Below are positions 6,450 through 55,043 of a DNA stretch of 64,000 bases, in pieces. How positions within the stretch are numbered: the stretch's first letter is position 1; every line of letters begins with the position of its first letter. The stretch spans positions 31,236,001-31,300,000 of the forward strand of contig NC_092674.1 in NCBI RefSeq assembly GCF_964355755.1. The letters run 5' to 3'. The position numbers were made by a program, and so were the translations under genes. Source of the DNA: Antedon mediterranea (lineage: Eukaryota > Echinodermata > Crinoidea > Comatulida > Antedonidae). A model generated the notes under the pieces. It had not been told where the DNA came from. It searched no databases and was given only the letters and a program-made list of their open reading frames with translations.

Positions 6450-6592
6450 TAAAGCTCTGTCTACACTATCAAACTTTATGTGATATGCCCATATATGGAC
6501 ATGATGATGTCATATCGCTACCATATTTGGGCATGTCACTAGGCACATCACATTTTTTGTGTCACATAGAGTTTGTGTAGACAGAGCTTTAA
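6450..6592. mobile_element. CArG-bearing inverted-repeat element (family 1), copy A
   Basis: A complete MITE-like copy. The left end AAAGCTCTGTCTACAC is mirrored by GTGTAGACAGAGCTTT at the right end. The interior has perfect CArG boxes CCATATATGG (6489-6498) and CCATATTTGG (6521-6530) around a GATGATGTCATATC core. No open reading frame. A target-site duplication is not clear, though AT-rich TTAA-like flanks recur. Confidence 0.85.
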
Positions 6593-7668
6593 TCTTTTTA
6601 AAAACATAATATAAGGCCTAATTTTTTTTTCTGGGAGAAAAAGACCTTTCTAAGCTATACTTTTGTCAACGAATTTCAGTGTCCAATTTGATAGATATTT
6701 GTTTTCTTTCTTTCTTTTAAAATCAAAATAATTATGTCTATAACTCAATTCATTTCCAGAGTAGGCTTACTTACTCAACAATGAATATTCCGTGTGAACA
6801 TGAATGAAAAAATCAGATAAAACTGATTTCCAATATCAAATAGAACCAATACCAATCAATTACGTAAGAGACAGTCGAAACCAAAATACAGAAGTTATTA
6901 AAATCTATCGAACGATAACACAGCATTAACAAAGCGGGCGCGATCAATCCCGCGTACGCGCGTCTACTACTTCATACTGTGTTCGATCAAGCTAACACGA
7001 ATTTAAGATATTTTATTATGAAATTAAAGTGATTGAAATTTGAGAGATGATTAATTTGACTGGTTTGAATGTTATTTCAAATACAAGTTTGTTCAATTTA
7101 GAAAAAAGCATTGGTTTCTTATAACACGTTATTTGTACTCAATGATGTATCGTGGCAGGTCTTTTGTGTTGTTCCTCGATGCCAATTTCCTTTTTGAGAA
7201 TAATTACTTGTTTGTCTCAGTTGTTAAAATGATTTTAGTGTGGTATCATATAAATACGATATTTGATCGTGAGCACTAATATTAGATATTCGTGTGCTCG
7301 ACTTAAGTTAACGAGATATCAACTACATTTAGCTTTTTCGAATAATTGCTCTGATGATGAAAAAAATGTTGAAGGGAAAATGTCTCAAAAATTAATCTCA
7401 GAAAAAAATGATTAAAATATAGTATGATGAGTGAACGCGCTGCAACCAGAATGACAAACCAATATTATTTTAAACATTATTAATGTTTTTAGGAAATGAT
7501 GAATGTGAAATGTATTTTGTCGGAGATTAATACGTGACAGTATTTTACATTAATCTTCATTTCTTCCAAAATCATTACAAAAAGTTTAATTTGGTAATGA
7601 TTCAAATGATTCGGTTTTATTACAATTATGAATCATAACAATCTGGTCAACGAATTGACAAACACATT

Positions 7669-7839
7669 TAAAGCTCTATCTACACTATCAACAAACTTTA
7701 TGTGACAAAACAATGTGATGTGCGCATATATGGACATGATGATGTCATATCACTACCATATTTATTCATATCACTACCATATATGGGCACATCACACTTT
7801 TTTTTGTCAAACTAGTTTGATATTTGGGATAGAGCTTTA
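7669..7839. mobile_element. CArG-bearing inverted-repeat element (family 1), copy B
   Basis: The ends AAAGCTCTATCTACAC and ATAGAGCTTTAG are inverted, the right end being more diverged. There is a perfect CArG box CCATATATGG at 7777-7786. The right arm keeps the GTCAAACTAGTTTGA block seen in other copies. It lies only 48 bases from copy C. Confidence 0.8.
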
Positions 7840-7887
7840 GTTCTTCTTAAGAGACAATATTCAACTTAAATACCCAGAGATTTCTAT

Positions 7888-8023
7888 AAAGCTTTGTCTA
7901 CACTATCACACTTTATGTGAAAAAGTGATGTGCCCATGGACACGATAACGTCATATCACTACCATATTTGGGCGCATCACACTTTTTTTTGTCAAACTAG
8001 TTAGATAGTGTAGACAGGGCTTA
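7888..8023. mobile_element. CArG-bearing inverted-repeat element (family 1), copy C
   Basis: TAAAGCTTTGTCTACACTAT at the left faces ATAGTGTAGACAGGGCTTAA at the right. CArG box CCATATTTGG at 7972-7981. Adjacent to copy B, so this pair may reflect a local duplication or preferred insertion. Confidence 0.82.
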
Positions 8024-8931
8024 ACTGATGAGTTTTAAAAAGTAACCATGAACATAGACAAAATGGAATACTGTATTATAATAATAAAAGTATCATTATT
8101 ACATCGTGTTTATTATTTAGAGTTTGTGTTGTTGTCAATGGTGAAATGATGACGACAGAGAACATGAATTCTAGATATATATTCTGTTTCCATATCTTTA
8201 TAATATTCACGGAATATTTATTGTTCAGTAAAATAATTATACTTTTACCAATTGTAAATAAAATACTTGCAGCGTGGACATGAATATAATGAAGGCATTT
8301 AATATGCAATTTTGAATTATTGCATCGGAGTTTGAATATTAATATTTAAGTTCTTGTGTGTTACAGTGTATGTTATTAAAGAATTTTCATCAAGCACAAA
8401 CAAAAATCGATATTTAAAAAAACATGATACGTTTTAATTTATTTTTAATTGAATTTTATGGAATTAAAGTGAGTTATCATTATATTCATTTTGTTATTTT
8501 TTTTTGTTACACACACGCAAACATGAATTAATTCTTAGTGGTTGTGAACTTGATGCAATGTCTTAAAAATAACAAATTAAAAGTAAGGCTGTGCTTGAAT
8601 TGAACAAAATGAATTTAATAGGATATTTTATGGGAAATTGTTCGTCAGTAATTCAAAATGAAGATGATAACTAAAGTTATATATTAAAATAATGAATTTA
8701 ACTTTCATAAAGTTTATGTAACAAAATATATTAAAAAAACAATCGATGGCATAAACTATTTAAACAAAACTGGTATATATTATATTAGCTTGTGTTCTTT
8801 AATTAAAATGACATGAAATAAGCAATTCATGAATACCACGAGGTCACCGATTGTCGCATTTTGAAAACCTTTAAAAATTACAGAACTTCACCAACGCCTC
8901 CTATTATACGTTTTCAAATTACACTCAGGCG

Positions 8932-9091
8932 AAAGCTCTGTCTACACTATCAAATATGGTAGTGATATGCCCAAATATGGTAGTGATATGCCCAAATATG
9001 GTAGTGATATGTCCAAATATGGTAGTGATATGACATCAACGTGTCCACATTTGTTTCATCACATTCAGTTTGATGTGGAGACAGAACTTAA
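8932..9091. mobile_element. CArG-bearing inverted-repeat element (family 1), copy D with expanded interior
   Basis: The left end GAAAGCTCTGTCTACACTAT and right end TGGAGACAGAACTTAA are inverted. The interior has expanded into four 21-base units. Three carry the perfect CArG box CCAAATATGG (8971, 8992, 9013) and the first (8950) has one mismatch. The rest of each unit reads TAGTGATATG. Confidence 0.85.
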
Positions 9092-9763
9092 CAAATCGAA
9101 ATTGTTTTCTAACATTAACAAGCAGCTTATTTATTACATCTCATAGTTTCTGCTTTAAATATTTAAGTTTTACAATTTGAACTATCATTTCTAGTGGTTG
9201 CTTGTAATCTTGTTCTTAAATATTTTCTTGATATTGTTATTGAAATTAAGTTTGACCATGAAATAAAATATTGAATGAATACTTATCCTTGTGTCTACAC
9301 GATACACACAACAACGCGTTTTATTTTGGTACATTACCTGCAAGATTTTAATCATAATCAGAGAGATTTTCAAAATTAAAATATCTATAAATATTCCTCG
9401 CGTCATAATCTGTTCGTTGTAACGGTTTTAATTGACAGCTTTTGTTTGAAATTAAACAGACAAATTAAAAGTGATAGGTGAACGTCCGGGGTTGGATTCT
9501 CTAATGAACTTATTATCTGTTTTGTCAAAGCCTTTATAGCTAATTCAATAGCAATCAAACAAACAAGATATTGCATTAGTTGCCAGACCTTATGACAGGT
9601 GATTGAGAAAGAAAAAAGCGTTTTAAAATTGTTGGTGAACGCGTTCTGAACGGATTGTTAAACGCTTGTAATACTTTAATAATGAATGTCATTGAGATTC
9701 AGACTCTCAGGAGGAATGCCGTATATTATTTAAACTAAAATTAACATTTAATCTAAAGCTCTG

Positions 9764-9899
9764 TCTACACTATAAAACTTTAGTGTTACAAAAAAATGTG
9801 ATGTCATAATATATGGACACGATGATGTCATATCACTACCATATTTGGGCATATCACATTTTTTGTCACATAAAGTTTGATAGTGTAGACAGTGCTTAA
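9764..9899. mobile_element. CArG-bearing inverted-repeat element (family 1), copy E
   Basis: TAAAGCTCTGTCTACACTAT faces ATAGTGTAGACAGTGCTTAA. CArG box CCATATTTGG at 9839-9848. The second box position (ATATATGG near 9810) has lost its leading CC. Confidence 0.85.
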
Positions 9900-10288
9900 G
9901 CAACTGTAATGTGTACATTTATTTAGGACATATAAACGCGAAATGCGTGAAACTTTGGTAAATAACGACGCGCGTTCCAATCTTTTAGACGCGCACCATG
10001 TACACTAATTTGACTCAATCAATTTAGCATTATAATGTTTTATTCAGGTTAACAACCGATTGGAAATGTTTCTAGAACATGATGTGGCCTTTAACAGTGG
10101 GTCCACATATCTAGACTCAAACTGATGCATGACTAGGCAGTTAATGTACCTGGAAGGAACCGTGTTCTCTCTCTTACCAATAATCACAGGAGACGAAATC
10201 TTATCTGTAAACTACAGACTAATAATATTATCTTATTTTTTTCTGTACGAAATACGACGGTGTAAGACTGCTCAGCTCATAGTATTAA

Positions 10289-10446
10289 AGCTTGGTTCCC
10301 ACTAGGACGCAACGCAAGAAAGTAAAACGTGTGTTAACCAATGACAAGCGACAGTTCAAATAAACCATGACCATGACTTGTGATTGGTCAACTCACTACG
10401 TTGCGGCTACGTCATTGCATTGCGTCCTAGTGGGGGAACTAAGCTT
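10289..10446. mobile_element. Short inverted-repeat element, family 2 (CCAAT-bearing), best copy
   Basis: AAGCTTGGTTCCCACTAGGA at the left is mirrored by TCCTAGTGGGGGAACTAAGC at the right, giving terminal repeats of about 25 bases. The interior carries AACCAATGACAAG (CCAAT at 10338-10342) and TGATTGGTCAACTCA (inverted CCAAT at 10383-10387), plus TACGTCA. No coding capacity. The flanks (TTAA / TTAAG) could be a TTAA target, but this is not certain. Confidence 0.8.
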
Positions 10447-10670
10447 AAGTAGACCTATAGTTATCGATCATTTCTATCTGTCTATGTATATTTATCATGC
10501 TATTTATTAACACCACTTAAGTCACTAGACTTTCCTCGTTTCGCAATACCGTTAACAATGACAGTTTTATTACGATAAAATGAATATCATTTATCATGAA
10601 AAAGATATCATTTAACACTATCAATACAAGTTCATTTTGAGATCACAAGATGGCTATTTTGGGATGCAAA

Positions 10671-10739
10671 CTTCGGGACGTTCCGGTAGACTTCGGGATG
10701 TTTCGGCAGTCTTAGGGATCTTCCGGTACACTTCGGGAA
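10671..10739. repeat. 20-base tandem repeat, about 3.5 units
   Basis: Three and a half imperfect units of the pattern CTTCGGGA(C/T)(G/C)TTCCGGTA(G/C)A. The array is more GC-rich than its surroundings. No coding role is seen. Confidence 0.7.
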
Positions 10740-12858
10740 AGAGTCACGTTTTGATTGCTTGTTTTCATTGGTTGAAAGTATAGCAACTGAAATTCCGAAC
10801 TAAAAGTGCACTCCGCTTGCTAACGACGACTTTAATCAGCAAGACTTTTTACATAAAAGGGCATTATGCTTTATATCAATGAAATACGATATATTAAACA
10901 GAGATAATCATTGCGTTTTAATGTCGAGAAATGGGGTAGAACTTACATAGAATCTGGTGGATTCATTTGTCGATTCGTGTATAAAGTTCGCCGGGTGAAT
11001 TAGTTCTCAAATGTGTTCATCTAGACCCTCCTTATTTGCTTTGCTTTATGAAATTTATTACGACATAATTTTATTATCCAATCAAAACAAAACATAGCTT
11101 ATATACGCGCGCGTGGTCAGTACGCTACCGTCAAGGATCAAAGTGATCACTAAATGTACCGCTCTAAAAAACTAATTGTGCAGAACGCTATATCAATGAC
11201 ATTATTATTAATATGGTTATTATTAATCTGTTTTAATATACGAATCTGTATACATTTTCATCTTTGAAAAAGTTCACCTCGATATACACACGGTTTAATT
11301 AAACTCGTTCATTTACAGAAACAAAACACATTAAAACGTCAGTATAGAGCATTACCGATGTCTTTTCCATCTGAACGCACTCTACTTACCGGTTTATTTA
11401 TACTTAATAAAATGAAAAACACAATAACAAATCAGAAACTTCACCCGATAATAATGAATTTAATCGATCGAACATTAAAATACTATTCATTTCGTGTCAC
11501 TTCATTTGTTATTTTCATTTAATGGAAATCCTTGCCAGTGAAATCGTTCATCGCAGTAATAACTGTAATGGCGTGCTCATTGTCAAAAAGGCCATATTTC
11601 CTTTCATAAAATATGTTGTATTCTTATGAAATGAATGCAACAGCTAATACGATCACTTTTTTTCAAATCAAATTTTCGATGATAACTTAATAATATGTCT
11701 ATCGTGTCACGTCGTCGTCAAATGAAATTTATTATAAAAATTCGGATAAAAAAATATGATATGTTATCGTTACAAAATCAAATACACCGATCAAAAAGAA
11801 AAATGAAAAAAAAAGTGGGGGAAGGGGGCTTGCGTAATGAACTGTACCGACAGTAGTCAGCAAAAGATGATACAGAAAAGACCGTACTAGAATATAGGTA
11901 ACAACAAAATCAAGGTTTTACGTTATAATAACACAAATTATTCATCTGTAACGTTCGTATACTCAACAGCAATGATATCTAAAAAGATTAAAGTCATTTT
12001 GTTAATAAATCTACAATATTTCCCTCGTGAATTCAGAGAACAATTGTTTCAATGACTGCTCCACCACGCATTGAAATCACATATCCTTCACATTCAGCAT
12101 ACGTTTACTAATATAACACGCGTGCGTGTACAAAAGTCGTTGTCAAGCACGCACACGTCACGTAAATTAAAGTATTTGTTTAATAGGTTCGTGCGCATTT
12201 ACAATAAATTACGTTACAGCAAAAACGTATAATTATTTGTGCGTTATTGTAATCAGGTGTATGTCTTATCGACAATCAAAACTAGCTCTATATCACCATA
12301 AATGACAATTATCAGGATATCAGGCAAACAAAGCGCCACGCGTGGGATGCGCGCCGACACGCATGCTTTATATCAACATGCACGGATGATGCCCCAGGCC
12401 TAAATAAGCTGAATTACAAAACAGTGACACTTTCATAATAATTTATATTAATATTCTGACAGGTATTACAATGGACTTAGAATATTAAATAGGCCTACAT
12501 TTAGACAAACTTCCATACGGTACATAAACAAAATCTTGCTTTTTAAATGTTTTGTAGGCCTAATTGGCCAAATTTTAATCTAGGCCTATGCGTCATTTTA
12601 ATATTTTTAATAAAATATTTTGATGATATAAATTTTAATTTCCTGTTGCGTCTTTTTAATGTAATGTATGCCCACGTGAGTAAAAGATTAAACGAAGTTA
12701 AAAGTCTAGCCTAAAGATGTACTTTGCTAAATAACAGCCAAGATCAAGATAATTAAATATAACTGTATTTATATTTTAATGCATTCTGTCTTCATTGGTT
12801 GCAACAGTAGTAAACGGATATAAAAACCAAAGTAATCGAATTCAAAGATGGCGATTCC

Positions 12859-12914
12859 ATCGAATGGTCATTCGATTCTATCGAATGGTCATTCGATTCT
12901 ATCGAATGGTCATT
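12859..12914. repeat. 21-base tandem repeat, about 2.7 units
   Basis: The unit ATCGAATGGTCATTCGATTC plus T is repeated. Each unit contains the inverted repeat ATCGAAT / ATTCGAT around GGTC, so each can fold as a hairpin. The unit is a whole number of codons, which is why a short repetitive frame remains open here. Confidence 0.75.
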
Positions 12915-15900
12915 TCACCTTTGACCGTTAGTGATCAAATTAAACTTACAATATCGCATTACCGAAAGTCAAATGAAAGTAATGTATTAAAATGAGCGTA
13001 CAGTTGAAATGCTGCATGTACGTAAAGCACACTACCGACGGTATGGGTGGTCCTGTGGACAAGAAGCGGACAAAAACCTGTATACGTAACGACTGACATG
13101 ATGATTGCTTTTACCTGGACTTCGAATAATACACAGATTGCCACTAATGGCTAACTAAACAATTGAGTAGATAGTACATGTCGTAATAAAGTCTCTTGCA
13201 TGCGTTTATACAAGTCAAGAGGACGATGAAAAATATGACAGTTTGAATTCCGAGTGAAATTAATGGATTGCTGTTTCCGGTCAATCGTATTTGAACCCGG
13301 TCACTCAGATTATTAACAAAATTGACATTTGATGTTTGCTTGTCTTTCTCATCAATCTTTCTGTACTCATTACCACTTTCTGAGATCTTATTAGCAAAAC
13401 AAAAAATTTACAGAACTCAAAAAGGATGGGAATGTGGTTTAGCAGTTCGTCACATCACTCTCTAAATAAGAATATTTAGGTAACTTACCTTAATTCGGGC
13501 ACAATATAAACTCTAAGTTGAGGCTTAACCTAACAAACCCTTTAATTGGTCCTCCAAATTCTGAATGTAAACTTCTCATTTTAGGTCAAGTCAACGATGT
13601 CTATAGGCCTTATAAAATAAACAAACAAAAATCCATGATTTATTTACATTTTCACACCAAGAATTTCTTAAATGATACTTATACTAATCTAAAACTATTA
13701 TTAAGTATAAATAACTATATAAATTCATGTTTATTTTTGTTATTTCCATTTGATCAGTTCATTTTATTTAAAAATACATGTTAATACTATATTTCCATGG
13801 AAACAAAGCACACATGGGCATTGCCATGGAGTAATTAACACCGTAAATTACTCAAAATAAAAAAAAAATATTTCTACTTTTACAATTCGTATATTTCCAT
13901 TGAAAGAACATGTGGATTCATTGATATTATTAATATGATTGTATACAAACGATATAGTGATAACAACTGTATACAACAACAAATGAAACAGAATTGGATG
14001 GGAGAGCGTCACTAGCTACGCGCCTATCGAGTCAACAAGTCATTCTGCGCATTATGTGAATGTATTTAAAAAAAACTCTTATTTAAAAAAAGCACTTTGA
14101 TTGATTGATTTTATCAATATAGATTCGTACATTCAACACCAATGTGAAATTTGATACCTAAATATAATGATATGTACGAAACATCATTCGTGTTGACATT
14201 ATATTTTAATTAGCATTCAATAGATTGATTCGTATTGTTGGCAGTCAGGAGACAATTCAGAATGCGTACGATATTAACACGTCTATTCATTTGTGTGTAT
14301 TGGTTATCACCATCGTTATATAATAAGAAATGAGCTACGAGCGCACAGTCATGATGCCAACATGAAAGAGTCTCCTTAATAGGTGTCCTCTGAATGGGTG
14401 TGTCACCATGGGTGTGTCACCATGGGTGTCCCCCTAAATAGAGGAGTCCTAAAAGAAGGTTTATACTGTGTTTATTTAACGAAATTATGTATGGTTGCAT
14501 TGTGCATTTTGGTTATCAACTGCGTGAAACAAAAAAGGAGGGCTGGTTGTAAGTTTGAATTGACCAATCTGTTAGTATATACCTTCCCACTGCTAATCCG
14601 AAGATTCTATCACTGCGTAATAAAAGTTAACAATATAATGTTGAGCTCTGTTATTGATAATTACAACAAATATTTGTGTTTGTATTGTTTCATATCCAAG
14701 TTTTAAATTTACTCGCCCTAAGCCCATTCTATAATGTCATATACTAAACGCACATTGTCGTTGGTTACAAACTCAATAAACTACATCATTTTTCTATTGG
14801 GACAAAAGGGTAACACGTGACAAACTGGATCAATTCAAAATGGAGCGTACCTCGTTCACTTGAATGTAAATCACCGGTTTAATTATAAATGACTTTCCCT
14901 AATTGTCTAGTAGATTGTTATTACAATCATCATAAAAATACTTCATTATTGTTTTCATTATTGCAATCAATTATAAGAACACTTTGCCTCACGCAATTTT
15001 ACGACTGAACCTCTAATTGCGCGCCACTCGAGTCGTCACACGCCAGTGTTATTTGGTCAATCTGGGTTGTTCTACGTAATGCTAAATGGTCCTACGACCA
15101 AATCCATTAACTCCACCCTCGAGTAACATTGTTACCAGGATGTTCGGGTGCGAAGCTGGATCATTATCATATAGATATATAGATGAATATTGATAGGATG
15201 CAGTTCTAGCGCTCGCAAATCACTCGAAAAATGCAATTCTTAGACCCTGGATTCAATCGAGTGGCAATCTCACGCAATCATATTGTGAAACAAAGAAACA
15301 AACATGCATTATATTGAACAGGTAGATATTACGTTCGTAATTAAATAGTATGATTAATAGCAAAGATAGAAGGATTCGCGTTTGCTTCTCTTCATCCGTG
15401 TCACTTGATTAAACGAGAAATCCTTTTAATTTTCATCATATCGCCAAAGAGCTTTGTTTATTTTCGACTCAATCCTGGTTTCTCTTAAAATGCAACTACT
15501 TGACTAAAAGAGATGTCCTTGGTACTAAAATATTGCAAGATAAACGTTAATGTAATGCTGATTGCTACAGTGGTCAGTATTCGATTGACAACACTTTGAA
15601 TTCCGACGTTTCTGTTATCAGGCCTCGTTAGAAACTACTCTTATTTGTCCGAGACGCACTTTATACAATCTATGCTTCAATATTTTAATGCATTATTGTA
15701 TTTCAAGTGTGAATGGACATTATAGAAACCAAGCCTGCTAACGAACAAGTATTTCTACATCTATTCATAAAGCACTTAAGTCATTGCAATGAATTGTAAT
15801 TATAAGTTCTGTAATAATTAACGTTCAGTGTATAATTGTATTTCAAGTGTGAACGGGCGTTATGAATTGGTTGTCGAACGACGCCTACTAACGAACAAGT

Positions 15901-18900
15901 ATTCATTACAATACTTAGAACCAAATCATTTGTAATTAATATTAAGTAATATGTTATTCATTTAGTACTCACCGACACATTAATCATCTCTATTAAAACA
16001 TTGAAGGTTTTAAAGAGGTTAATTATACAGTAATACAATATAATCAAGAAATTGCAATTCATTAACTATTATAGGCCTACACCAGTTCACATGCGACGTG
16101 TACTAAACGAATACAACTTTTAAAATCTTATTAAAATAATATAAATGTAACCATATCATATCGCCCAGAAGCTGATCGTGTCAGATCTATTTGTAACAAT
16201 AGTGTATACATTAAAACACAGTAGGTCTAAATCATCTGCATGCAAATACGATACGAAAACAATTAAGTTATAGGCTAATAACGGGAAAAAATATAAAACA
16301 GTGTATTTAAAATAAATTAATAAAGTTAATAAAGAACAACTAACTTAGGGAATGAAATGTTTAAGTCTTTCTTACAATAAGAGGCCTACAATGTAATGAG
16401 GAAGAGAATATAGGAGGAATCGAAAAGTGTGTATTATACTGGTAAAACAATATTAAATATTGTGGTTGAGCAGAAGAACTTTGCCTATGTACACAACCTA
16501 TTACGAAACTGTATACTTTTGAGCTGCTAAAGCAAACGCCCTTTTGATAGACACGATCCAATACATTGATGTTATTAATATCAAAAGAAATAAAATGAAA
16601 AGGATGCTTGAGAATTAGATATGTGATTTTGAATCCATTAAGCAATTTGATAATGTATTTTATAATGGGTGATTCCATTAGGTAAAATTACTTTGAATGC
16701 CATTAGTATAAATAACAGTAATCATTGTTGTTCCAATCCCGCAAATGGAGTTGGTTATTTTTCTCATTCTACAGTTTTTATAACGCGATTTTTCGGAAAG
16801 CGTCCAATCATACCCCGTTTACTAGTCGTAAATTGGGTCGCTTAATCGATTACATCACATCACTGTTGATATTGTAAACGAATATTTGTAATACTTGAAT
16901 ATATGTCTCAATATCATGTTAACTAATGCCACATTATGTAACAAGATGTTTACATAGAATCAATGTGTTCATATACACCCACGATACCATTAATACAAAC
17001 ATTACTAGAAAAGTGGATAGAATAGATGAGGGCGCTACTCATTAAATTTAACAACAGTCTTAATACCGTTTTATTGTTTTTACACGTAAATACCACTATA
17101 TTTACAATAAGTATACAATGTTGAAATTTGTTTTAATCTGTACAACTGTTTGACATTAACATGTAGAATAGGTCACGTAAAAGGACGTAATCTGTGCTAG
17201 CTGTGCGGTTTGAATTGAAAGTGTCAGGTATCTGAAATTCATATTAATTTGTACAATCTTCGAATAAGTTGTTAATGTTATAGTCTACCTGAAACTAGTT
17301 TGACGGAACACACATTTGTTTTATTTGCCCTGATATTAGCTAATATTAGATATGCAAAAATCGGGCAAGTTGAAAGGATTAATATTAATTATTATTATTA
17401 TTTAAATAAAGATAATGAAAAGCAATGAGTTAAATAAATAATGAGCTTTATACATATCTAGGACTATAAATGTATATACAGGTACGTAGGTTTATTTTAA
17501 CATGCATTCAAAGTAAGTAATTTATATCTAAATAAATATACACGAACGTACCGGATGATAATCCATCCAGGTATATGACGATTAACAATTATTAACATGC
17601 ATTTTCGTTGGTATAATAATAATACACCGTATGGAGAAGTTTTTACAACAAAATTATTGTTGTAAATATGATTAAAATGAAAATATAAACACATTTTAAA
17701 CAATAGTGTAGAAATCGGGGGAAATTAAAAAACGAGGCTGAAATAATAGAAAAACATCTGGCTCTGCTGAGTCAATGAAATTAATTTTATATTGGTTTAA
17801 AATATCTAACTATAGGTCAGCGTATTGATATAAATTTAAATAGCAGATGTTATAAGGTTTGCAATATTACGATAACGTGACAAAAGTAGTATTCATAAAG
17901 TAGAATTATAGGTCTACTGTATATTGAGATATATCATTAATATTTCATTATTCGTGTCAATGATGACACAAGAAAGAAGAGACGTCGAGTTTGACGCACG
18001 CGTTGCAAATATGCGTATGCAAGTAATGATGTAATAAAAATGACGCGCTCATGGCATCGACGTAACGTGGTTTTCTCTTAAATGGAATATATTTATGCGT
18101 AAAGACAATAATAACTACTTTATAATTACATTTACATGAATTTATACAATTTGGCAACAATCACATTGTCAAGGACATGAGACACATTCGACGTTCTTTA
18201 AATATTTTGATACCAATTTTTGTGTTATAATCAACATCAAGCAATCTATCACAACTCAGCATTTTAAAATAATGAAACGACGCAATTCATTATTTGCTAA
18301 TGTTATATTATACCTTTGTTTGGTTTGGCGCTATGAATAATGTATTATTGCAATTGACTAACTGCAGTCTTTAGAAGGCAGACAATCATATCAACCATTT
18401 AAGTAATTGTTTGTAAATAACACTAAACGTCTGGAAATTATAATCGATAGGAGACAGAATAATACATTTATTTTGAATTATAACTCTATCTGTATTATTA
18501 GTAAAAACACGTCATTTTCATGTCCGCAAAAAAAAAAACCCACCCACTATATTTCATAATGAACTTAGTATTACCTCGTAGATTGCAGGCGTTATGCCAT
18601 GAATATAACACGATAACTGACGCGTTAAGACGTGCACAAACGTCGCGCGCGCGTAAACTTTGTTATTTCTTGTGTTACGGACGCTTTTGAGATCCTGTTT
18701 CATGAATGGTCAACATTTAATTGTATTAAACATAGGTCTACTAACAATTTGAATTGTATTTTCATTGAACAATTAAAGTTATATTATATATTATATCCAT
18801 TTTATTATTTTACACCCGAGACATCGTAAACCTAATGGAAAACACAAAGAATGTACCCAATGTTATCTTCGTCCATTAAAGAAATCCCAAGTGTGACGAA

Positions 18901-25060: not shown

Positions 25061-25202
25061 GAAGCTCTGTCTACAATATCAAACTAGTTTGACAAAAAAG
25101 GTGTGCCCAAATATGGTAGTGATCTAACCAAATATGGTAGTGACAGTGGACACATACATTTTTTGTCACATAAACTTTGATACGGTAGTGTCGACAGTGC
25201 AG
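25061..25202. mobile_element. CArG-bearing inverted-repeat element (family 1), copy F
   Basis: The left end GAAGCTCTGTCTACAATATC and right end GGTAGTGTCGACAGTGC are diverged but recognisable. Two perfect CArG boxes, CCAAATATGG at 25107-25116 and 25128-25137, again start exactly 21 bases apart. Confidence 0.8.
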
Positions 25203-35261: not shown

Positions 35262-35435
35262 AAGGATGATACTGCTGACGAATTTGAAGATATGATGGCG
35301 ATGGTTACGATGATGTCGATGCATGCTCAGTATATGAACAATGAATACATTAAACACTTAAAAACCCAAAATGCTTCCGGTAATGAAGGAAATGCATTAC
35401 TCGTAATATTAATCGGTTTATGGAAATGAAATAAA
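35262..35435 (+). other. Orphan exon-like segment with acceptor, stop codon and AATAAA
   Basis: A strong acceptor (GATATTTTTCCAG) is followed by 55 open codons beginning KDDTADEFEDMMAMVTMMSM, then TGA (35427-35429) and an immediately adjacent AATAAA (35430-35435). The composition is acidic then methionine-rich, and less AT-rich than the flanks. This looks like the terminal exon of a plus-strand transcript, coding or not. No matching upstream coding exon was found; a weak exon candidate lies at about 34248-34308. No family is recognised. Confidence 0.3.
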
Positions 35436-36851
35436 TATGTTATGTATTGTTATAATTAACCGTAATCACGACTGCGAAATGTGTCATAATTGTTATTATT
35501 AGCCGTCTGGTCACTAATATTAATATCGCGTTAGGAATAGTATTTGATAACAAAGAACAATAAACGAGGCAGTGTTAGTACTTATTAAAAAATTAGGATT
35601 ACTAATTCTAAAACATACGTTAGTGGAAAAAAAAACATAGAAGTTTGTTTTAAAATATGCATTGCTCCGACACAATAAACTAAGCGGCCAACAACAGTGC
35701 TTCGGCTAAAAACTTAATGAGATGGAATTTGTATATTGTTAAAGAACCGACGGTGTAATATATATCGGAACTAAACGAGTTAATCAAATAACAATGCATT
35801 TTAAATATTATTTGTATTCTAAAATACAGTAATTATCTGTTTATTCATAGCTAATCCATGTGATTAATTAACAAGTGAAATATTTCAGTTTTAACATATT
35901 TAAGTACGTAAGGGTGGTCACGTCTTGTTTCTATGTAATTTGACGTTTTCTGGGTTTAGATGTATAGGCAGATAGAAAAAAATGAAATTGAAAGATTTAA
36001 GATGTTTTTAGTTTGATGGGTAAGGAGGCTCAACTTAGCTTAACACCTGTAATTATGCTAATTAGCTGAATTTGCTGCAATAAGAAACATGGCAACAAAG
36101 TTTGAATCCCGCGGTGTATCTAAAGATGGCGCTATAAACTGTTACAAATTATAAAATAATAATCCAAATAGGCTATATGTTATAAATAAAAAGACGAAAG
36201 CCTAAAAATGAAATCTATCACCTAGGTAATTAAATTGATTTGTCTATCGGTTAGTCAGTTGAAAACCAAACTTTATCAGAAAAAGTCAGTGGAAAAAATA
36301 ATCATATTATTATCGACAAAATACTTCAGAAAAAAAATTAAAAACACTTTGCAGACGCAAAAAGTACTTAACAATGCAATTAATAGCGAATAAAATGATC
36401 CAAAGGTCAGCAAACTGATGGGGTACATGTGACATTCACAGATGACATGACACAGGCAACTCTTAAGTGACAATGACAAATAAGGAAATGACCAGTGACA
36501 ATTACAACTTTTGATTACAATATTTAACAAATTCGCTCGGAAGGATTTTTTATTCGGTAAATTAATTTTATTTTAAATTTGAGGTCTAAAATGAGATTTA
36601 AGGAAATTAACGAGGAAGACCATGCATCACGTTGAAGGTCCAAAAGCCCTCGAGCGGTTCCTGATCACCATGGAGACCAATCTGACAGATATTGCTGATG
36701 TCTTAATTTAACGATTACTGGTTTACTTAAGGTTATACAAAGTATGTGCTTAACTTAGTACAAAATGTAAAGAAAATGTAATCTGTGAATTCTAGAATTA
36801 CTAAAAGGACTTGAGAATTGATAATAAAACATCCACATACATAAATTGCTT

Positions 36852-37018
36852 TTAAGCTCTGTCTACACTATCAAACTAGTTTGACAAAAAAAAGTGTGAT
36901 GTGCCCAAATATGATAGTGATATGCCCAAATATGGAAGTGATATGACACCATCATGTACATAAAGGGCAGATCACATGTTTTTGTCAAATAAAGTTTGAT
37001 AGTGTAGACAAATCTTTA
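36852..37018. mobile_element. CArG-bearing inverted-repeat element (family 1), copy G
   Basis: TTAAGCTCTGTCTACACTAT faces ATAGTGTAGACAAATCTTTA. Perfect CArG box CCAAATATGG at 36926-36935. A one-mismatch version (CCAAATATGA) starts 21 bases before it at 36905. Confidence 0.85.
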
Positions 37019-37066
37019 GGACAACAGTTCTATGGTGTACTAGCATAGTTTGCATAATGTTGCAGT

Positions 37067-37339
37067 ACGGTATTCTTCTAACCATAATCAGTTACCTCAT
37101 ACGGTATTCTTCTAACCATAATCAGTTACCTCATACGGTAATTCTTCTAACCATAATCAGTTACCTCATACGGTATTCTTCTAACCATAATCAGTTACCT
37201 CATACGGTATTCTTCTAACCATAATCAGTTACCTCATACGGTATTCTTCTAACCATAATCAGTTACCTCATACGGTATTCTTCTAACCATAATCAGTTAC
37301 CTCATACGGTATTCTTCTAACCATAATCAGTTACCTCAT
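37067..37339. repeat. 34-base tandem repeat, eight nearly perfect copies
   Basis: Eight head-to-tail copies of a 34-base unit (ACGGTATTCTTCTAACCATA ... AGTTACCTCAT). The only difference I see is one extra A in the third copy. It begins about 50 bases beyond element copy G. No function is evident, and the uniformity implies recent amplification. Confidence 0.92.
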
Positions 37340-39535
37340 AATATAATACATTTATACCAATACCAAATATACACTTTCATATCATTGCGAGATCTCATAC
37401 ACGTGCTTCAAACGAATAGTTTAAAAGTTCAACCAAACCAACACACATAAATTCGAATTAATTAATAGTTTAAATTAATTAATTCAAACGATATTTGTAA
37501 TTTGTTAGCCTTCAATGGAATTGTTGAATGCGGAGTCCAAAAGAATCAAGCCTACTCAACAAGGTGACAGTTACTGACTCAATAACTGACAATGAAATAA
37601 TAAAATAAAATGCTATAAATATCTGCAATACAGCCATCTTTCAACACACCTTCCTTTAATGTTTTTACGTGATTGCATTTCCTATCTTCAATCTACATAA
37701 ATCCTGAATTCATCTTCGTATAAACCGGCCTATAAATAATTTATATGACGTCAAATGTTATCTTTAACCCACCTGTTTTATATTCCTTTTTTAAAAATAA
37801 TTTTGTTTTCTACATTTTTATTTCTCTAAACAAAGTTCTTTAAAAAAAATTAGGTACGAACCTAAAATATAGATATATCATTATACACTAAGGGATGGGT
37901 ATTTTTTCATATGTACACAGTTAAAGATACCGTAAATTGTCCTTCTGAAAAAAAAATTGTTAGCTACCATTTTATTTCTTAACAAAATTCGTCTTAATTA
38001 TAGATACAGCACTGTATAGATATCATTATATATTAGGGTACGGTATGTTTTTATTCGTAGCCTACACAGTTAAGTAATGATAAGAAAAACATAAAGTTCT
38101 CAATGTATTTAAGCTCTCCACCTATAGGTAAGTTAGTACTAATTATAATTATCAAACTATTGCCTAATAAGACTTATTCAGAGAGTTCATCTTATGGTAA
38201 CAAGTCTATACGGTGCGTGATTTGCTTTAGATTGCGGGCGGACGGACAAAAAACGTCAAAGTAAATCTGGCGGGAAATCTCCAAATTAGCAAAAACTTCT
38301 TAGTAATCTACAAATGATGATGTACATCTTAATTTACAATATTTGAAAAACATTTTACACATAATGATAGAGTCAACATGATGTCAAGATAGGGAAACTA
38401 TATTACGTCATTGGTGGTGTTTTGACGTTGAGGGCGGAGACAAGAAGGAAGGGGGACATTGAGTGACAGTTTAGGCCTATGTTTATAACATAATGTGTAT
38501 ATTGAGGAAGGGTGTTGATAGAGGGCACTACACCAGTACGATAGTTTCAGTAATTAAAGCATTTTGCGTCAGGAATGTTATTATACATATATATATATAT
38601 ATATAGATTTAATTTTTGCGCAGTTAGGCCTATATAAAATGTACAATGCTTAAATGCAAGAAGGCATTGAGTAAACAAACTTGATTTGGGTAACTGCTTG
38701 TTTTTCACAAGACACAACAGACAGATATATAAATATTACTGTTATGTTATTAAATCTTTAAAGTATAAATTCGTCTACATTTTCAAATGGGAAAAATACT
38801 GATAGTGATTCTAATATTTCAATTTTACTTCTAAAAAATATCTCATATTTCAAAGTTGGCACTTAGGACAAACGCTAACAGAAGATATTACAACTGTCAT
38901 GAAAAGAAAAACTGTGTTAGAAATAGAAATGAATCAATTACACGGCTTAATTGGGTTTAGCCAGAGCACTGGTCAGAGAGCAGCTGTTAGCCTAAACAAT
39001 TTTAACAAGAATCGACGTTTAAGAACCGAAGGAAATAAGATTTCGAAGGCCTGGCTGCTACAAGGATCGTCTGATATTCACCATCCTCCCTATCTCAAAT
39101 TCCCACACATACACCTTTCGCGGATATCTCGAAAATATGATAGGTAATCGAACTTGAACGTGACTACAAACTTGTTTAATGATTGCAATTTCTGTTTCTA
39201 ATTGTGTTTAATGTTTAACTAGCAATCAGTGTTCATCTGTTTATTGAAATTGAACATTCAAATACATACAGTTAGTTTGTATAGACAATTAGTTATTGCG
39301 TAATTAGACCGTAATAATACAAATTAATGAATTAAATTTAAATTATAGTTTTCCGTTGATTACACTTTAATGATTAAAGTATGTTAACGAAATAAAACTC
39401 AGCTTATGGATGAAATAAATACTAGTATATTTTATTTGAATAACAAACTATACAATATCTATTTTTATACCTCCATGGATGAAATATCTATCAAAAATGT
39501 CGTTTGGTACAAATGTATGTTAATACGTTATTTTA

Positions 39536-39640
39536 CGTACAAAGACAAATCAAAAGCAACGAACTATCCGAACTTTCGCTTATGATTGGTCAAATTACTT
39601 GCGTTGCACGTACGCATTTACGTTACGTCATAATGGCTAT
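39536..39640. mobile_element. Degenerate family-2-like element
   Basis: TATGATTGGTCAAATTACTT followed by GCGTTGCACGTACG and TTACGTTACGTCA resembles the right arm of the elements at 5316 and 10289 (TGATTGGTCAACTC, GCGTTACGTC). Clear terminal repeats are missing, so the assignment is tentative. Confidence 0.35.
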
Positions 39641-39794
39641 TGATTCAAATCGCCTCAATCTCACACTGTTGGACCATCAACAGTCTTTTAAAAACTACAC
39701 ATGTGTTGATCTTTCAATCTGATAATTAGTTGCTAACTAATTGACGACAGTTCTTTCCATTTTTTTTTTGCCTAGTCATAAATTCGGCTACCTT

Positions 39795-39800
39795 TTTAAT
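39795..39800 (-). terminator. Candidate polyadenylation signal of CCDC138 (ATTAAA)
   Basis: On the minus strand ATTAAA occurs about 270 bases after the CCDC138 stop. No AATAAA lies nearer downstream, although one occurs inside the last coding exon (around 40111). The choice is tentative. Confidence 0.35.
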
Positions 39801-40071
39801 GAAATCTGTGCACAATTTTTATATGCAGTCCATCGTTTAAATTGATAATTAGACTGATCTAAATTACCCTGTATAAAGACACATTTGTTTTTACTTTATA
39901 AATGCTATTTACATTTTTAACAGAGTCTACTAAATTATGATAATTGTTTGTGTTAAACCAGAATTTCACTCTTTCCTGGTAAACAAAGGGATAATAAACA
40001 TAGCGAACAATTATGATTGAATCAGGAATTGCGGACCTTCAACAGAGTACTCAATAATCAGTCATAGCTAC

Positions 40072-43000
40072 TCAACTTAGCATATTTTTCAGTTGTGAAG
40101 CTGGAACTTTATTTACATTCAAGTTGAAAAGAATAGAACGAAAATTGAGCGCCAAAAAGGCATCATCATGCTGACTACAGCTGTGAATCAGGTCTTGAAT
40201 GATGGTTGAAAAGCCAAGCACCTCAAAAAATCTCTTGTTCGATCTTCAAAAATAAAAGACACAAACAATTGTACTTCTCTGTGTGATTACGTCAAGGCCA
40301 TCAAACACATTAAACAGTGCTTTCAAAGTTGATTACATTAAAGAAAGAAAATGTATACCATCAGAAGGTTCTCTATATTTATACAAATATACTATTTGTA
40401 CAGCAATTAAGTTTGCCTTTGTTTAATCCTGTCACTGTCATGGGTTTGTTATATTTATTGTATTATCATGTTTTTAATTGACGAAATAAATGAAATGAAA
40501 TGTGAGCTTACAAGGTGCTGGAGATTTTTTGCTGTGATATCTCAGCAAATTTGAAGAGGTAATAGGTTGGTTTTATATCACCATTTATAGGTCCATGACA
40601 AAAAGCATGAAAAGTCAATCAGTCAAATCAGAAAAGAAATCGTGATACAGTGCATTTATCATGATAAATAAACAGGAAGCTTGGTTGGTTTTATATCACA
40701 AAAATTAAGACAAGTCAATCAATTAAAAAAAAGAAATCATGATTTAAAATAAACAGGAACTTTGGTTGAAGTGAATTTCCTTTTAAGCTCAAGATTGTTA
40801 TTCTTCAACTATACATTTTATTCAACTAGAAATTATAAATAAATGTTTATCTCCTGAAGGCAGTCTCATAAATCAACACTTTTAAAATTTATCTTATGTA
40901 AAATATTTACTGAAATAAAATTGTTTTAATGAACTCAAAAGTTGAAACAGTAGAAGCCTTAGGATATCTACGACCTTACCCCGATGTGTCATTACAAATC
41001 TGTTATTTTTATAAAATAGCTATTTATTTTACTCTTAGGAAAATGTTATCTTTTAATATGTAAAATAGTTAACGAAGTAATGTATAAATAATAAATACAG
41101 ATATGGAATCATTAAAAGGCATGATAACTGCCTATGATTTTTTTTTTGTAAATGAAGAAACAGAAACAGAAAATTTACAAGTATTAAATACTTTAATATA
41201 AATGAATATTAGATCTAATTGTTAAGATTTTAAGTTGAAACTTACCTGATCTTTGACATCTTTTGCAGTATGATGCTAAGTTTCTCCAACAGTTTGTGGT
41301 CCAGGCCTGGAGTCTTCAACATTGAAAGACAACCACGAAACCAGGATTCAGTACCACAACTTTCAAGAAAAGGGCCTAATACCACTATAGAAATAAAGCG
41401 AGTATTACAGATTTTGTCAAATATTTTCATAAAAAAAAAAAGGTACAATTTATAAAATTGTATTTATTTAATAGCTTATAGGCTATAAGGCACAAATGAA
41501 TTTCTTTTTACAGTTACACCTACAGATATGAGGCAACACAAATTCCTTATAAAGCGTTGTTAAAATTGGTTAAAATTGCCTTACTTTTTTCCAAAAGTTT
41601 GTCTATCGCAAAAAGAAGATAGGTAACGTAGGTTACAACCTATAAAGTTAACATTTTTTTTTGACACATCCAATTTATTTATTGGAATGGATGGTGACAT
41701 ACCAGATTCTGTAGCCATTTGCAAGTAGATATCAACAGCCATGTTACATATCATCTTATTGGACGGTTTCATGAATGTGACAAAAAGATCAGTAGCTTGG
41801 TATTGCATGAAGAGCTCTTTGCATCTGTCCTCTTTAAGGTCACTGCGGAGAACATCAAACACCTGTGCAAGGTGGTCAACTTAAAAATATAAAGATAATT
41901 AAAACAACCTCAGTACAAGCTTAACACCAGAACATTAGTTTACTCATCCTAAAAAAGGAAATACAGATAATTAAGACAACATAAGTACAAGCTTAACACC
42001 ATAACATTAGTTTACTCATCCTAAAAAAGAAAATACAGATAATTAAGACAACATAAGTACAAGCTTAACACCATAACATTAGTTTAATCATCCTAAATAA
42101 GCAAACCTAAATCTTAAGTAGCTGACACCAAACTGCACTCATTTATTTGTCCACGTCTCCTACTATTGATTGTAAGTATTAATAAGGAATTAATCATTAT
42201 GTGGAAGAAATAATTGTTGATCTGATTGCTTGATTGATTGATTTTTGAGTTTTAACTTGAACAATTCAACTTATTTCAGACAAGTTGTCCAAATGAAACA
42301 TATAAATACAATAAAAAAGACAAGAGAAGAAAGACTGTTGCTGTACAGTACTGTATATTGTTTGTTTTAGTACCTTGTGTAAGTGTTCTTAGTATGATCA
42401 AACATGACAGAAATCTTGAATGAATGGAAGGACTTTTGAAGAAACAGCCAGATTTAGATCTTTCTGCCACGCCTATCCGTCCAACTAAAGCATCTGATTT
42501 TAGTATGTCAGCAACACCAAGCCTTGTAGCTTTAGCATCAATACTTCTAACAACACTTGGTTTAAACAACTCTTCACCAAGCCTACGATACGTTGAAGTC
42601 ATACCTGCTCCTCGCTAAATTATGTAACAAAAAATAATAAAATAAAAATGTGAAATGGATAAGGATGAAATAATTTGTCAAAATGAAGAGTTGTCTCTAT
42701 GGTAGATTATCTATTGTCATGTATCTGTGTTATTGCAAATGACACCAGGTACGTCGCTTGTGCACATATTCGGAAAAAACATAGTCTGCACCATTGTTAG
42801 AAAAGCGTAGTAGAAACACTAGTCTAGCTCCCACACAGTAAAATTTAGTGATTTGTTCCATGAAGAGAAAGGATGCATTATAACCACTTTACAAATGTAT
42901 AAAAGAAGTGACCGACCTGTGTAGATTCTTGTGATTCTATTTGAATAAGGGACCAGTAGACAAACTGTAAACAAGGTAGATGTATCCTGACACATGCTGG

Positions 43001-46000
43001 AGGCAGCTGACCAATCATTTCTACCAACTGTGGCAAAATCTACAACCAAACAAAATTCAAAAACATTAATTACTATATTATATGCACTATATATTTTTCT
43101 TTTCTTTTTTTTACAATTTTGTTATCTGTACAACGAGTCTTTAGATTAAGCTTCTTTTTGGAATGGATATATTATGTCATCATGGTATTCCAAAACAAAA
43201 AGATGAATGAATGAATTAATAGAACTTTAATTTAAATTTATGAACAACAGGTAAAAGAAAAATGATTACTTTTGAACACTTTTCTCTGGTAAGTGCGACT
43301 GTTTGTGGTCTTTCAGCGACTTGTGTAGTGAATCGCAAATGTACTTCACACAACCAGTCCAACAACTGGCCTAAAATATCAAACACCAAAGGCTGTAATG
43401 ATAAAATAATATTTTAGAAGGGCACCATATCAGTACTATATTATTATTAGATTATGATAAATTATTGAATTAATGTTTTCACATCTACAGTAGCTCATGT
43501 GCACGAGTAGGGGGTTACCCCGGTGATTTACAGTAGCTCATGTGCACGAGTAGGGGGTTACCCCGGTGATCTACAGTAGCTCATGTGCACGAGTAGGGGG
43601 TTACCCCGGTGATTTACAGTAGCTCATGTGCACGAGTAGGGGGTTACCCCGGTGATTTACAGTAGCTCATGTGCACGAGTAGGGGGTTACCCCGGTGATC
43701 TACAGTAGCTTATGTGCACGAGTAGGGGGTTACCCCGGTGTGTTTTAACATCTACAGTAGCTCATGTGCACGAGTAGGGGGTTACCCCGGTGATCTACAG
43801 TAGCTCATGTGCACGAGTAGGGGGTTACCCCGGTGATTTACAGTAGCTCATGTGCACGAGTAGGGGGTTACCCCGGTGATCTACAGTAGCTCATGTGCAC
43901 GAGTAGGGGGTTACCCCGGTGATTTACAGTAGCTCATGTGCACGAGTAGGGGGTTACCCCGGTGTGTTTTAACATCTACAGTAGCTCATGTGCACGAGTA
44001 GGGGGTTACCCCGGTGATCTACAGTAGCTCATGTGCACGAGTAGGGGGTTACCCCGGTGATCTACAGTAGCTCATGTGCACGAGTAGGGGGTTACCCCGG
44101 TGATCTACAGTAGCTCATGTGCACGAGTAGGGGGTTACCCCGGTGATCTACAGTAGCTCATGTGCACGAGTAGGGGGTTACCCCGGTGATTTACAGTAGC
44201 TCATGTGCACGAGTAGGGGGTTACCCCGGTGTGTTTTAACATCTACAGTAGCTCATGTGCACGAGTAGGGGGTTACCCCGGTGATCTACAGTAGCTCATG
44301 TGCACGAGTAGGGGGTTACCCCGGTGATTTACAGTAGCTCATGTGCACGAGTAGGGGGTTACCCCGGTGATTTACAGTAGCTCATGTGCACGAGTAGGGG
44401 GTTACCCCGGTGATTTACAGTAGCTCATGTGCACGAGTAGGGGGTTACCCCGGTGTACCAGTACATCACATCCACTGGGAGACCAGTCTTTTACTGAAGG
44501 TCACCCAGTATAAATAAATAAAAATAAAAAATAACTATAACCATGATGGTAATAATAAATTAATAATATTGATGATTAAAAACAAGTTACACACCTTTTG
44601 CTGTCTTTGTAAAATCTTGCCTGCCTCTTTTTCTTGTTTAATTGCATTTTTCTCAGCTTCCAGTTGTTCCTTCACAGTTATCTTCTCCACATCACTTACT
44701 CGTTCATCATAATCTTTTTTTCTTAATATATTCTGTAATCGTCGTTGCAAATTATTGGCTTGCGTTTCAAATTTGCTGTTCATTTCTTGAGCATTGGTGA
44801 GCTTTGGACAACACAAGAATACATTTAATTTATAAATACACTAGTTACCACTAGTTACACAGTAAACAAGCATTATCAGTTCATTCAACAGTTGAGGTAA
44901 TATATTATTTTTATCATTTATTAATTAATTTATTTGAACCATATTTAATGAGGGTGATTTATCCAGAAATTGCTGATCATTTGGGACCCTTAGTCTTATT
45001 TTATCATATAGAAACTATCAAACTAGGAGCCCCAATGTACTCACCTGTTTTCTGAGAGAATCATTGCCTTGCTTTAAGGTTTCAAAGGATGCCTTCATTC
45101 TCTTTATTTCCTTATTTTTTTCTTTCAAAGAATTTTCCATTTCTAGTAACTGTGACTTGTGATCCTAATCAAGAAATTAAACAATTTAACAAAAGAATGA
45201 GAATAGAAACAGTGTTGTACAGGTTGGGAAAACCAGGATCTATCACCAAATCACAATTTTCCGATTTTACTGTATTTTTCCAAATTTAAACCAGAATTTG
45301 TTTTTTTTAAAAACACAAATTTGGTCCATCAGAGTTTGGGAATTGACTGGATATACTCTCACTGAATAAAACTAATAGCAAATAGCATAAAAAGATGATG
45401 TTGTCAATAATGACCTGCACTGACCTCTTGTAGTTGTCTCCATTTACCAGAGATTTCTCGTTGTATATTCCTCCTACTTTCATCATGTAGTGATTGGCTC
45501 ATGTCTTCTTGCTCCTCCAGAAGCCGTTCTCTTTCATAAACCTCTTGCTCTCGCACTAACACCTCATATTCTCTTTCTTTCAGGATTTCGTTTTCTTCCT
45601 AAATAAAAATAATAATACATAGCAAAAAATAATAAAACAGAATATACAGAAGTCTAATCTAAAGCTCTGTCAACACTATCAAACTTTATGTGACAAAAAA
45701 ATGTGATTTTCCCATATATGGACATGATGATGTCATATCACTACCATATTTGGGAATATCACCACCATATTGGGGCATATTACACTTTTTCAAACTAGTT
45801 TGATAATGTAGACAGAGCTTTATGAATTCAGGGGTGTCCAGTTTATGGGGTCTGGACTTCCCTAAACTTTAGAACATGCAGTTGCAGACCTCAAGTACTT
45901 ATTCTACTCTGGTTTGTTAAAGAAGACCTAATTCTTTTTTTTTCTTATTGTCAGACAAAACTCTGGATTTGGCCCAGTATATATATCCATTTTCATGTCC

Positions 46001-47395
46001 AAATGTTAATAAATGGAATTAATCTTCCACTGATGAATGAATGTTACCTTTAAACGGTTTCTTATAAGATTCAACTCAGCATACACATCATGCATGTTAT
46101 GACGTTCCTCCTCTACATCTTTTCGTCGACCCTTCTGTCTTGGCCTGGCAGACTTCTTGTACAAAGAACTAGTGGAAACATCAGACTCTTTTAAAATGCT
46201 TGGACTCTGCGAGTAATTCTCATTTTTGGTGGCAGTAGTATCTAAAGAAAAGGATAAAAACAAGTCCAAATTTAGATCAGTTCTTGAAATATATTGCAAT
46301 ATTCTACTCTAGCATTACTTATAATTAAACAAATATTTATTTAATATAATTATCTAAAAGAGTCTAGTTTGACAAAATATGTGTGATGTGCCTAAATACT
46401 GTATGGAAGTGATATGCCCAGATATGGTATTGATATGACATTATCATGTCCATATATGGGCACATCAAATTTTTTTTGCTGTTTTTTGCTTAAAAATGAG
46501 TTTAGAAAATGTAACATACTAACCATAACTTCTGTAGCTAGATTTCCCATCTGGGGTCAACATCCTCAACGATTCATTGGCCACTTCAAGACGTTCACTA
46601 CTGATCTTTACTATTTTGTACATTTCTTTCAGAGCGCGGTTGTAATGGCGTCGCTCTGGGCTGGACAGTTGACCAGGAGTCCATTCTGTGCTGATATAAT
46701 CCATAGATGGGGACTTCATAGAGGGCAGAGTAACTTGATTAAACAAAAAATGAAAATTTAAATTGGAAATTTACATTCATTTATTATAATATAGTAATTT
46801 TATAAAAGTACAATTAATTAGCCTGCCTAATATTCATTAGTGCATTAAGATAAGGTTTTTTATGGACATAATAGGCCTACTTATAGGCCTACATAAATGT
46901 AGCTAGTTTAGTATTTAAATGCATAGATTATTAGAACCTTCTTCAGCTATTGTTGTTGGATATGTAAAATCTTCAGTGTACGACTGCAATCCATTATCCT
47001 AAAAAATAAAGAAACATTATTAATTATTATAAATCACAGATTAAAATGTAAAAGCTAAGCAAGCACTGTATTTAGCTGGGTCCTACACTAGGCCTAGGTG
47101 TACTGTTTTGTAGTAGATGCCTAGTACGATTTAGGTTACAGTAACGTGAGGTCTCTCACGTCCACATAATTGGGTCCAAACGTCCACATTATGAATACAA
47201 GCTTATCAAGGCAGGGTAGCGAAAAACAATATTCGCATGCAGCAAACTAGCTAGCCTGCCTTCAAACAAGGCCTAATAAGTAATATAGCGACAAGTTAAT
47301 ATGTTTTGCCATTAGGCCTATAAAAAAAATATTACCACTTTTCCCCATATAGATCGAACCATTGGATCATCTTCATTACTCGATGATTTCATCAT
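40072..47395 (-). CDS. ccdc138: CCDC138, complete 13-exon gene, 666 residues
   Basis: Coiled-coil domain-containing protein 138, a protein linked in vertebrates to centrosomes and ciliary bases; its biochemical role is unclear. Exons (minus, 5' to 3'): 47336-47395, 46938-46998, 46524-46733, 46048-46241, 45425-45598, 45045-45164, 44595-44801, 43270-43392, 42917-43039, 42374-42614, 41703-41879, 41246-41384, 40072-40243. All joins are GT-AG with matching phases and total 2,001 bases. The length is almost that of the human protein as I recall it (about 665). Residues about 1-110 are low-complexity and 160-342 are coiled coil (EREYEVLVREQEVYERERLL). From 342 on the protein is helical and best conserved: CLQFVYWSLIQIES, FLSCLIILRTLTQ, DHLAQVFDVLRSDL, LEKLSIILQKMSKIR, and last exon FLALNFRSILFNLNV. 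The first ATG pair (MMKSS) was taken as start; the frame is open further upstream. The long intron 7 holds a 22-unit minisatellite and intron 4 holds two family-1 elements. Confidence 0.92.
41897..42101. repeat. 72-base tandem repeat, three copies, in CCDC138 intron 10
   Basis: Three units of 72 bases share AGTACAAGCTTAACACCA and AACATTAGTTTACTCATCCT. The second and third are nearly identical; the first has several substitutions and the third is truncated at its end. Intronic, with no coding role. Confidence 0.85.
43487..44455. repeat. 43-base minisatellite, 22 units in 6+5+6+5 higher-order blocks, CCDC138 intron 7
   Basis: Twenty-two nearly identical 43-base units (ACAGTAGCTCATGTGCACGA ... 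GGGGGTTACCCCGGTGAT then CT or TT). The last unit of each of the first three blocks is lengthened to 52 bases by a TGTTTTAACATCT linker, splitting the array at 43754, 43978 and 44245 into blocks of 6, 5, 6 and 5 units. The 5' flank (ATGTTTTCACATCT) resembles the linker. Each unit has a GGGG-TTA-CCCC hairpin and a GTGCAC palindrome. It fills most of a 1.2-kb intron. Confidence 0.97.
45660..45822. mobile_element. CArG-bearing inverted-repeat element (family 1), copy H, in CCDC138 intron 4
   Basis: TAAAGCTCTGTCAACACTAT at one end and ATAATGTAGACAGAGCTTTA at the other. Perfect CArG boxes CCATATATGG (45712-45721) and CCATATTTGG (45744-45753). It sits in the intron upstream of exon 45425-45598, away from both splice sites. 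Confidence 0.85.
46362..46476. mobile_element. CArG-bearing inverted-repeat element (family 1), copy I, fragment
   Basis: An internal fragment: AGTCTAGTTTGACAAAATAT, then GTGTGATGTGCC, GAAGTGATATGCCC and a perfect CArG box CCATATATGG at 46450-46459. The outer AAGCTCTGTC repeats are missing. It lies in CCDC138 intron 3, just downstream (in transcription) of exon 46524-46733. Confidence 0.7.

Positions 47396-48277: not shown

Positions 48278-55043
<6,766 letters not shown>

Follow-up and report, generated by a model that had tools for sequence, protein, structure and literature searches.

An abundant palindromic MITE carrying CArG motifs in the genome of the crinoid Antedon mediterranea

Genes, element copies and CArG boxes in the window

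The window analysed here is a stretch of 64,000 nucleotides from Antedon mediterranea (contig NC_092674.1, positions 31,236,001 to 31,300,000). It contains a dachshund homology domain (Ski/Sno/Dac) on the minus strand at 2413-2841 (Pfam, E 2e-38) and domains of CCDC138 on the same strand at 41581-44840. Nine copies of one dispersed inverted-repeat element had been predicted in this stretch from the sequence; all nine were located, and a search of the window with a profile of the element led to the same nine places.

Copy 1 (6452-6589, plus strand) folds as a single hairpin and carries CArG boxes at 6489-6498 (CCATATATGG) and 6521-6530 (CCATATTTGG). Copy 2 (7671-7837, plus) has an additional 21-bp unit and one box at 7777-7786 (CCATATATGG), and copy 3 (7889-8022, plus) has its box at 7962-7971 (CCATATTTGG). 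In copy 4 (8933-9089, minus) the 21-bp unit is repeated 3.9 times, with boxes at 8971-8980, 8992-9001 and 9013-9022. Copy 5 (9756-9897, plus; box at 9839-9848, CCATATTTGG) had been given a start at 9764, which is 8 bases late. Together these five copies (6452-9897) occupy 3.45 kb, approx. 3.6-7 kb from the exon with the dachshund domain. Since the domain is encoded on the minus strand at 2413-2841, the cluster lies upstream of that exon, and the gene context proposed for it was confirmed. Copy 6 (25062-25201; boxes at 25107-25116 and 25128-25137) and copy 7 (36854-37016; box at 36926-36935, CCAAATATGG) are both on the minus strand. Copy 8 (45662-45820, plus; boxes at 45712-45721 and 45744-45753) and copy 9 (approx. 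46371-46478, minus; box at 46450-46459) had been assigned to introns of CCDC138; the gene was named correctly, and the copies, at 45.66 and 46.36 kb, lie within or adjoining it.

The end motif AAGCTCTGTCTACACTATC was found at 13 places in the window with up to three mismatches, where 0.01 were expected, and the internal unit gave 18 matches where none was expected. Copy 9 is an exception to the shared ends claimed for the whole set: its terminal repeats were not recognisable. Perfect CC(A/T)6GG boxes were observed 21 times in the window compared with 4.75 expected from shuffles; none of 100 shuffles of the whole window reached 21, the maximum being 11. Fourteen of the 21 boxes lie inside the nine copies with at least one in each, in agreement with the earlier count. 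When 90 kb were sampled at nine arbitrary places in the genome, two clear copies and at most three weak or cut ones were seen, so the window, with nine copies in 64 kb, is denser than average.

An Rfam scan of the window gave no match, and neither, as expected, did a search of a phage collection. A second inverted repeat is located at 10298-10434; its arms are 27 bp long, 85% identical and 83 bp apart. This repeat starts with CCCACTAGGACGCAACGC and possibly represents a second MITE family. Tandem arrays were detected at 43483-44455 (43 bp x22, inside the CCDC138 gene region), 56713-57146 (22 bp x20) and 37066-37340 (34 bp x8). An open frame of 429 aa on the minus strand (52752-54041) showed a weak SAM-domain match below the cut-off.

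Structure of the element and its insertion junctions

The element is a palindromic MITE of approx. 142 bp with ends of the form AGCTCTGTCTACACTATCAAACT. The consensus derived from complete copies, also approx. 142 bp, reads AAGCTCTGTCTACACTATCAAACTTTATGTGACAAAAAAATGTGATGTGCCCATATATGGACATGATGATGTCATATCACTACCATATTTGGGCACATCACACTTTTTTTGTCAAACTAGTTTGATAGTGTAGACAGAGCTT, and the end sequence in the form that bounds the element reads AGCTCTGTCTACACTATC. The ends are inverted, the length is typically 110-250 bp, and among the reading frames listed for the window those within the body are all short. A literature search on the end sequence gave no match. The whole element forms one long imperfect palindrome, and each of three copies from the window folds into a single hairpin (z from -9.5 to -10.8). 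When copy 1 is folded, its left box CCATATATGG is base-paired to its right box CCATATTTGG; lying opposite one another in the two arms, the boxes are mirror images of a single sequence. The 21-bp unit around the right box (GTGATATGCCCAAATATGGTA type) is present in as many as four tandem repeats in the window (the copy at 8933), and 4.8 tandem units were found at one locus sampled elsewhere (L069). At two other sampled places (L033:283-326 and L113:294-346) tiny palindromes of approx. 45-55 bp are made up of a pair of element ends set back to back. We concluded that the observation is real and that the element is abundant and was correctly described, and that it is ordinary in kind: all nine repeats belong to a known sort of element, a small abundant DNA transposon.

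Insertion junctions were read from 63 complete copies (126 ends), of which 36 copies were unconditioned, having been chosen with no regard to the base at W, while the TTAA-anchored copies were conditioned at one end. If the element is bounded by AGCTC...GAGCT, the duplication would be TWA. Reading outward, the flank of the 126 ends was T, T, W, A, G, at frequencies of 0.91 and 0.92 for the two T, 120/126 for A or T at the W position, 0.87 for A and 0.41 for G. The G outside TWA is found at 41% of the 126 ends against a background of 15% (p 3e-13). An extended target preference around the duplication is therefore present, and the junctions read C|TWA|G.

The base at W agreed at both ends in 23 of the 36 unconditioned copies (T/T in 13, A/A in 10) and disagreed in the others (A/T in 12, T/A in 1), an agreement with a Fisher p of 0.025 that became 0.003 when the TTAA-anchored copies were added. 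A TTAA duplication of the piggyBac-like kind was rejected, as TTAA stood at both ends in only 1 of the 36 unconditioned copies. In twelve of the 36 the junctions are TAAA...TTTA, in accord with TA and with neither TWA nor TTAA. These twelve, read as TA-AAGC...GCTT-TA, are what would be expected if the same MITE belonged to a superfamily duplicating TA only (Tc1/mariner, Stowaway-like), the extra A/T being part of its ends. We regard this as unlikely, because the 23 copies whose W is identical at the two ends fit a three-base TWA (p 0.025, or 0.003 with the anchored set), and because the preference for an outer C...G agrees with the extended targets that have been described for PIF/Harbinger elements and their relatives.

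A TWA duplication and terminal repeats that usually start with A or G define PIF/Harbinger transposons (PMC4482050), which typically also prefer an extended target (PMC2836001). The terminal repeat of our MITE starts AGCTCTG, as this rule expects. The genome contains 150 scored matches to DDE_Tnp_4. An autonomous parent was sought at 13 of these loci, 2.7 kb each, and none was flanked by the ends of the MITE; one ordinary copy was seen near one of them (L132). Empty sites were sought among the sequences collected, and none was found. Given the 13 loci without matching ends and the A/T class of junctions, we consider a PIF/Harbinger (Tourist-like) MITE the best fit to the C|TWA|G junctions, likely and not proven.

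With Tourist-like PIF/Harbinger MITEs such as rice mPing the Antedon element shares a short non-coding palindrome, a high copy number, and a TWA-type junction with an extended target preference. It differs in its ends and body, for which no counterpart came up in the sources consulted, in the 21-bp internal units, in that no autonomous partner was found at the 13 loci read, and in the mismatch at W in a third of the copies. The NuwaII group of PHIS transposons (C|TNA|G) likewise has C...G on either side of a three-base T.A core; its reported terminal repeats, however, start with GG, with N in the middle of the core, whereas the Antedon repeats start with AG and the middle base is A or T in 120 of 126 ends.

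Copy number and CArG boxes in the genome

In the 354 Mb genome the exact 20-base ends of the MITE occur 11,148 times and the reversed control 0 times; CArG-bearing units with up to three mismatches number 31,785, again with 0 in the control. The family is dispersed, as the original prediction stated, and of high copy number, and we infer a size in the order of 10,000 to 20,000 copies. Of 80 copies sampled elsewhere in the genome, 64 had at least one perfect box and 16 had none.

Perfect CArG boxes number 66,265 genome-wide, compared with 20,176 for the reversed pattern. The excess of approx. 46,000 corresponds to approx. 70% of the total, and 55 of the first 100 boxes listed were one of the three decamers typical of this MITE. 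From the excess and the decamer counts we concluded that the family and its satellites probably supply about two thirds of the perfect CArG boxes in the genome.

Among the first 100 exact end matches listed, approx. 45 belong to three tandem arrays (L005-L028 at C1:409-414 kb, L069:1385-2097 and L070:1-4362) with periods of 42, 134 and 92 bp. At L069 the full copy that closes the array has the same flank as the array. MITE-derived satellites are already known, for example Xstir and miDNA4 of Xenopus, which likewise consist of MITE ends or internal units repeated in tandem (PMC9659126); in the Antedon arrays each unit of 42, 92 or 134 bp joins one MITE end to adjacent non-element DNA.

That transposons multiply one transcription-factor motif is already known as well, and it is the scale of CArG seeding that is notable here. 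MITEs have amplified E2F sites in Brassicaceae, where about 85% of the motifs lie in transposons (Henaff 2014, as reviewed in PMC12595863). In that account a transposon family also supplies most copies of one 10-base motif, and binding was shown, whereas the Antedon case consists of the motif alone, decaying faster than the measured neighbour. CArG-like motifs of PHERES1 are carried by RC/Helitrons in Arabidopsis, with binding (ChIP) and expression evidence (PMC6914339). Multiplication of CArG by DNA transposons is common to both cases; the superfamily and the kingdom differ, and the use of the motif in Arabidopsis is backed by ChIP. In open-access literature, covered incompletely and by titles and abstract openings, no animal MITE with CArG or SRF sites was found.

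Decay of the boxes and their possible binding partners

To compare the CArG boxes with neighbouring element positions we used unaligned genome-wide pattern counts of a 31-base stretch, GATGATGT-CATATCACTA-CCATATTTGG-GCA, which includes the right-hand box and one neighbour as yardstick. The full site occurs exactly 1,563 times. When the ten box bases were freed the count rose to 3,993, and when the ten neighbouring bases were freed it rose to 2,618. The CArG-preserving pattern gave 1,679 and the A/T-preserving pattern of the neighbour 1,692. Where the flanks are intact the right-hand box thus survives in 39% of places and the neighbouring ten bases in 60% (p 2e-60), in counts that mix variation among source copies with decay after insertion and to which a small selected subset would be invisible. 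Altered boxes were still CArG in 4.8% of cases (116/2,430), whereas A/T-preserving changes made up 12.2% (129/1,055) of the altered neighbours. The original prediction had taken decay of the boxes at the pace of the rest of the element as one sign that the CArG content is incidental; on this sequence half of the question, the right-hand box was found to decay even faster than the neighbour measured.

In the first 100 places listed, the two C of the box were lost 17 and 10 times and the two G 43 and 38 times, while the A/T core hardly changed (0-5 changes per 100 per position). Twenty-seven of these 100 places end in AA, most as CCATATTTAA, an inherited type which has therefore multiplied without that CArG box. 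With this type removed by the same proportion, the box was intact in 54%, still below the 60% of the neighbour. Alignment-based estimates of conservation were rejected as biased. A first aligned sample showed no clear conservation excess of the boxes, and a second ranked the right box 2nd and the left box 47th of 82 best-kept decamers; as the aligner favours the best of several tandem units, the unaligned counts were preferred. For the right-hand box there is no sign of selection for CArG, in a count that a small subset would escape.

The perfect CC(A/T)6GG boxes had been described as SRF/MEF2 sites. This wording is loose in its second half, as MEF2 prefers YTAWWWWTAR. The family had further been thought to spread ready-made response elements. 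Boxes are indeed spread (66,265 against 20,176), but the idea that they are kept as response elements finds no support, given the survival of 39% against 60%, the loss of GG and CC and the amplification of CCATATTTAA. If the family were kept or spread through SRF binding, as a distributed network of response elements, then the approx. 46,000 boxes above the reversed control, the box in 80% of sampled copies, the cluster near dachshund and the earlier example of Arabidopsis Helitrons spreading MADS-factor sites (PMC6914339) would all speak for it. Such a network is nevertheless highly improbable, because the box decays faster than its neighbour and breaks at GG/CC, the box-less type was amplified, and A/T-preserving changes were not favoured (4.8% vs 12.2%), although unaligned counts are blind to a small used subset. 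Scarcely better is the chance that, with the perfect CArG boxes of the genome roughly tripled by this one family and most of them decaying freely, either a minority located close to developmental genes, dachshund among them, or the titrating mass of boxes affects SRF regulation. Judged by sequence evolution, SRF use of the boxes is not supported, and they are probably by-products, at most latent or decoy candidate SRF sites.

The reading we prefer, with a probability of roughly 0.78 for the explanation as a whole, is that a palindromic MITE of approx. 142 bp is moved in trans and that its CArG motifs are incidental and decay after insertion. To the observed ends, palindrome, copy number and target preference we would add, as the presumed enzyme, a PIF/Harbinger-type transposase that acts with a Myb-like partner on the non-autonomous MITE and cuts with it at C|TWA|G targets. 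One CC(A/T)6GG decamer lies in each arm, within a 21-bp unit (GTGATATGCCCAAATATGGTA type) that undergoes tandem expansion as well. Because this decamer is almost self-complementary and sits in a palindrome, an intact copy shows about two CArG motifs. In this reading amplification multiplied the motifs, and after insertion the boxes decay like unconstrained DNA.

It is plausible that the 21-bp unit is a putative subterminal binding site for the mobilising proteins. A stronger version, in which the boxes or the unit bind the transposase or Myb-like protein of the element itself and are constrained in source copies and not after insertion, is possible though doubtful. The unit is subterminal in both arms and repeated 1-4 times, its A/T core hardly varies (the same 0-5 changes per 100), and for ORF1 of PIF/Harbinger, binding to the DNA of the element has been reported or proposed (PMC2836001). 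The amplification of the CCATATTTAA type, however, means that not every unit needs a perfect box, and the autonomous partner was not found among the 13 DDE_Tnp_4 loci.

A MITE can thus flood a genome with one transcription-factor motif with no sign of selection on that motif, which calls for caution in reading the motif content of transposons as regulation. The Antedon genome offers a natural system in which to ask if SRF is titrated by CArG motifs present in the tens of thousands, and for annotation this MITE family should be masked before CArG scans. Within the family, a subfamily whose first unit ends in TTTAA and whose second unit contains CCATATTTGG has been amplified genome-wide, as seen for example at the sampled loci L058, L092 and L111.
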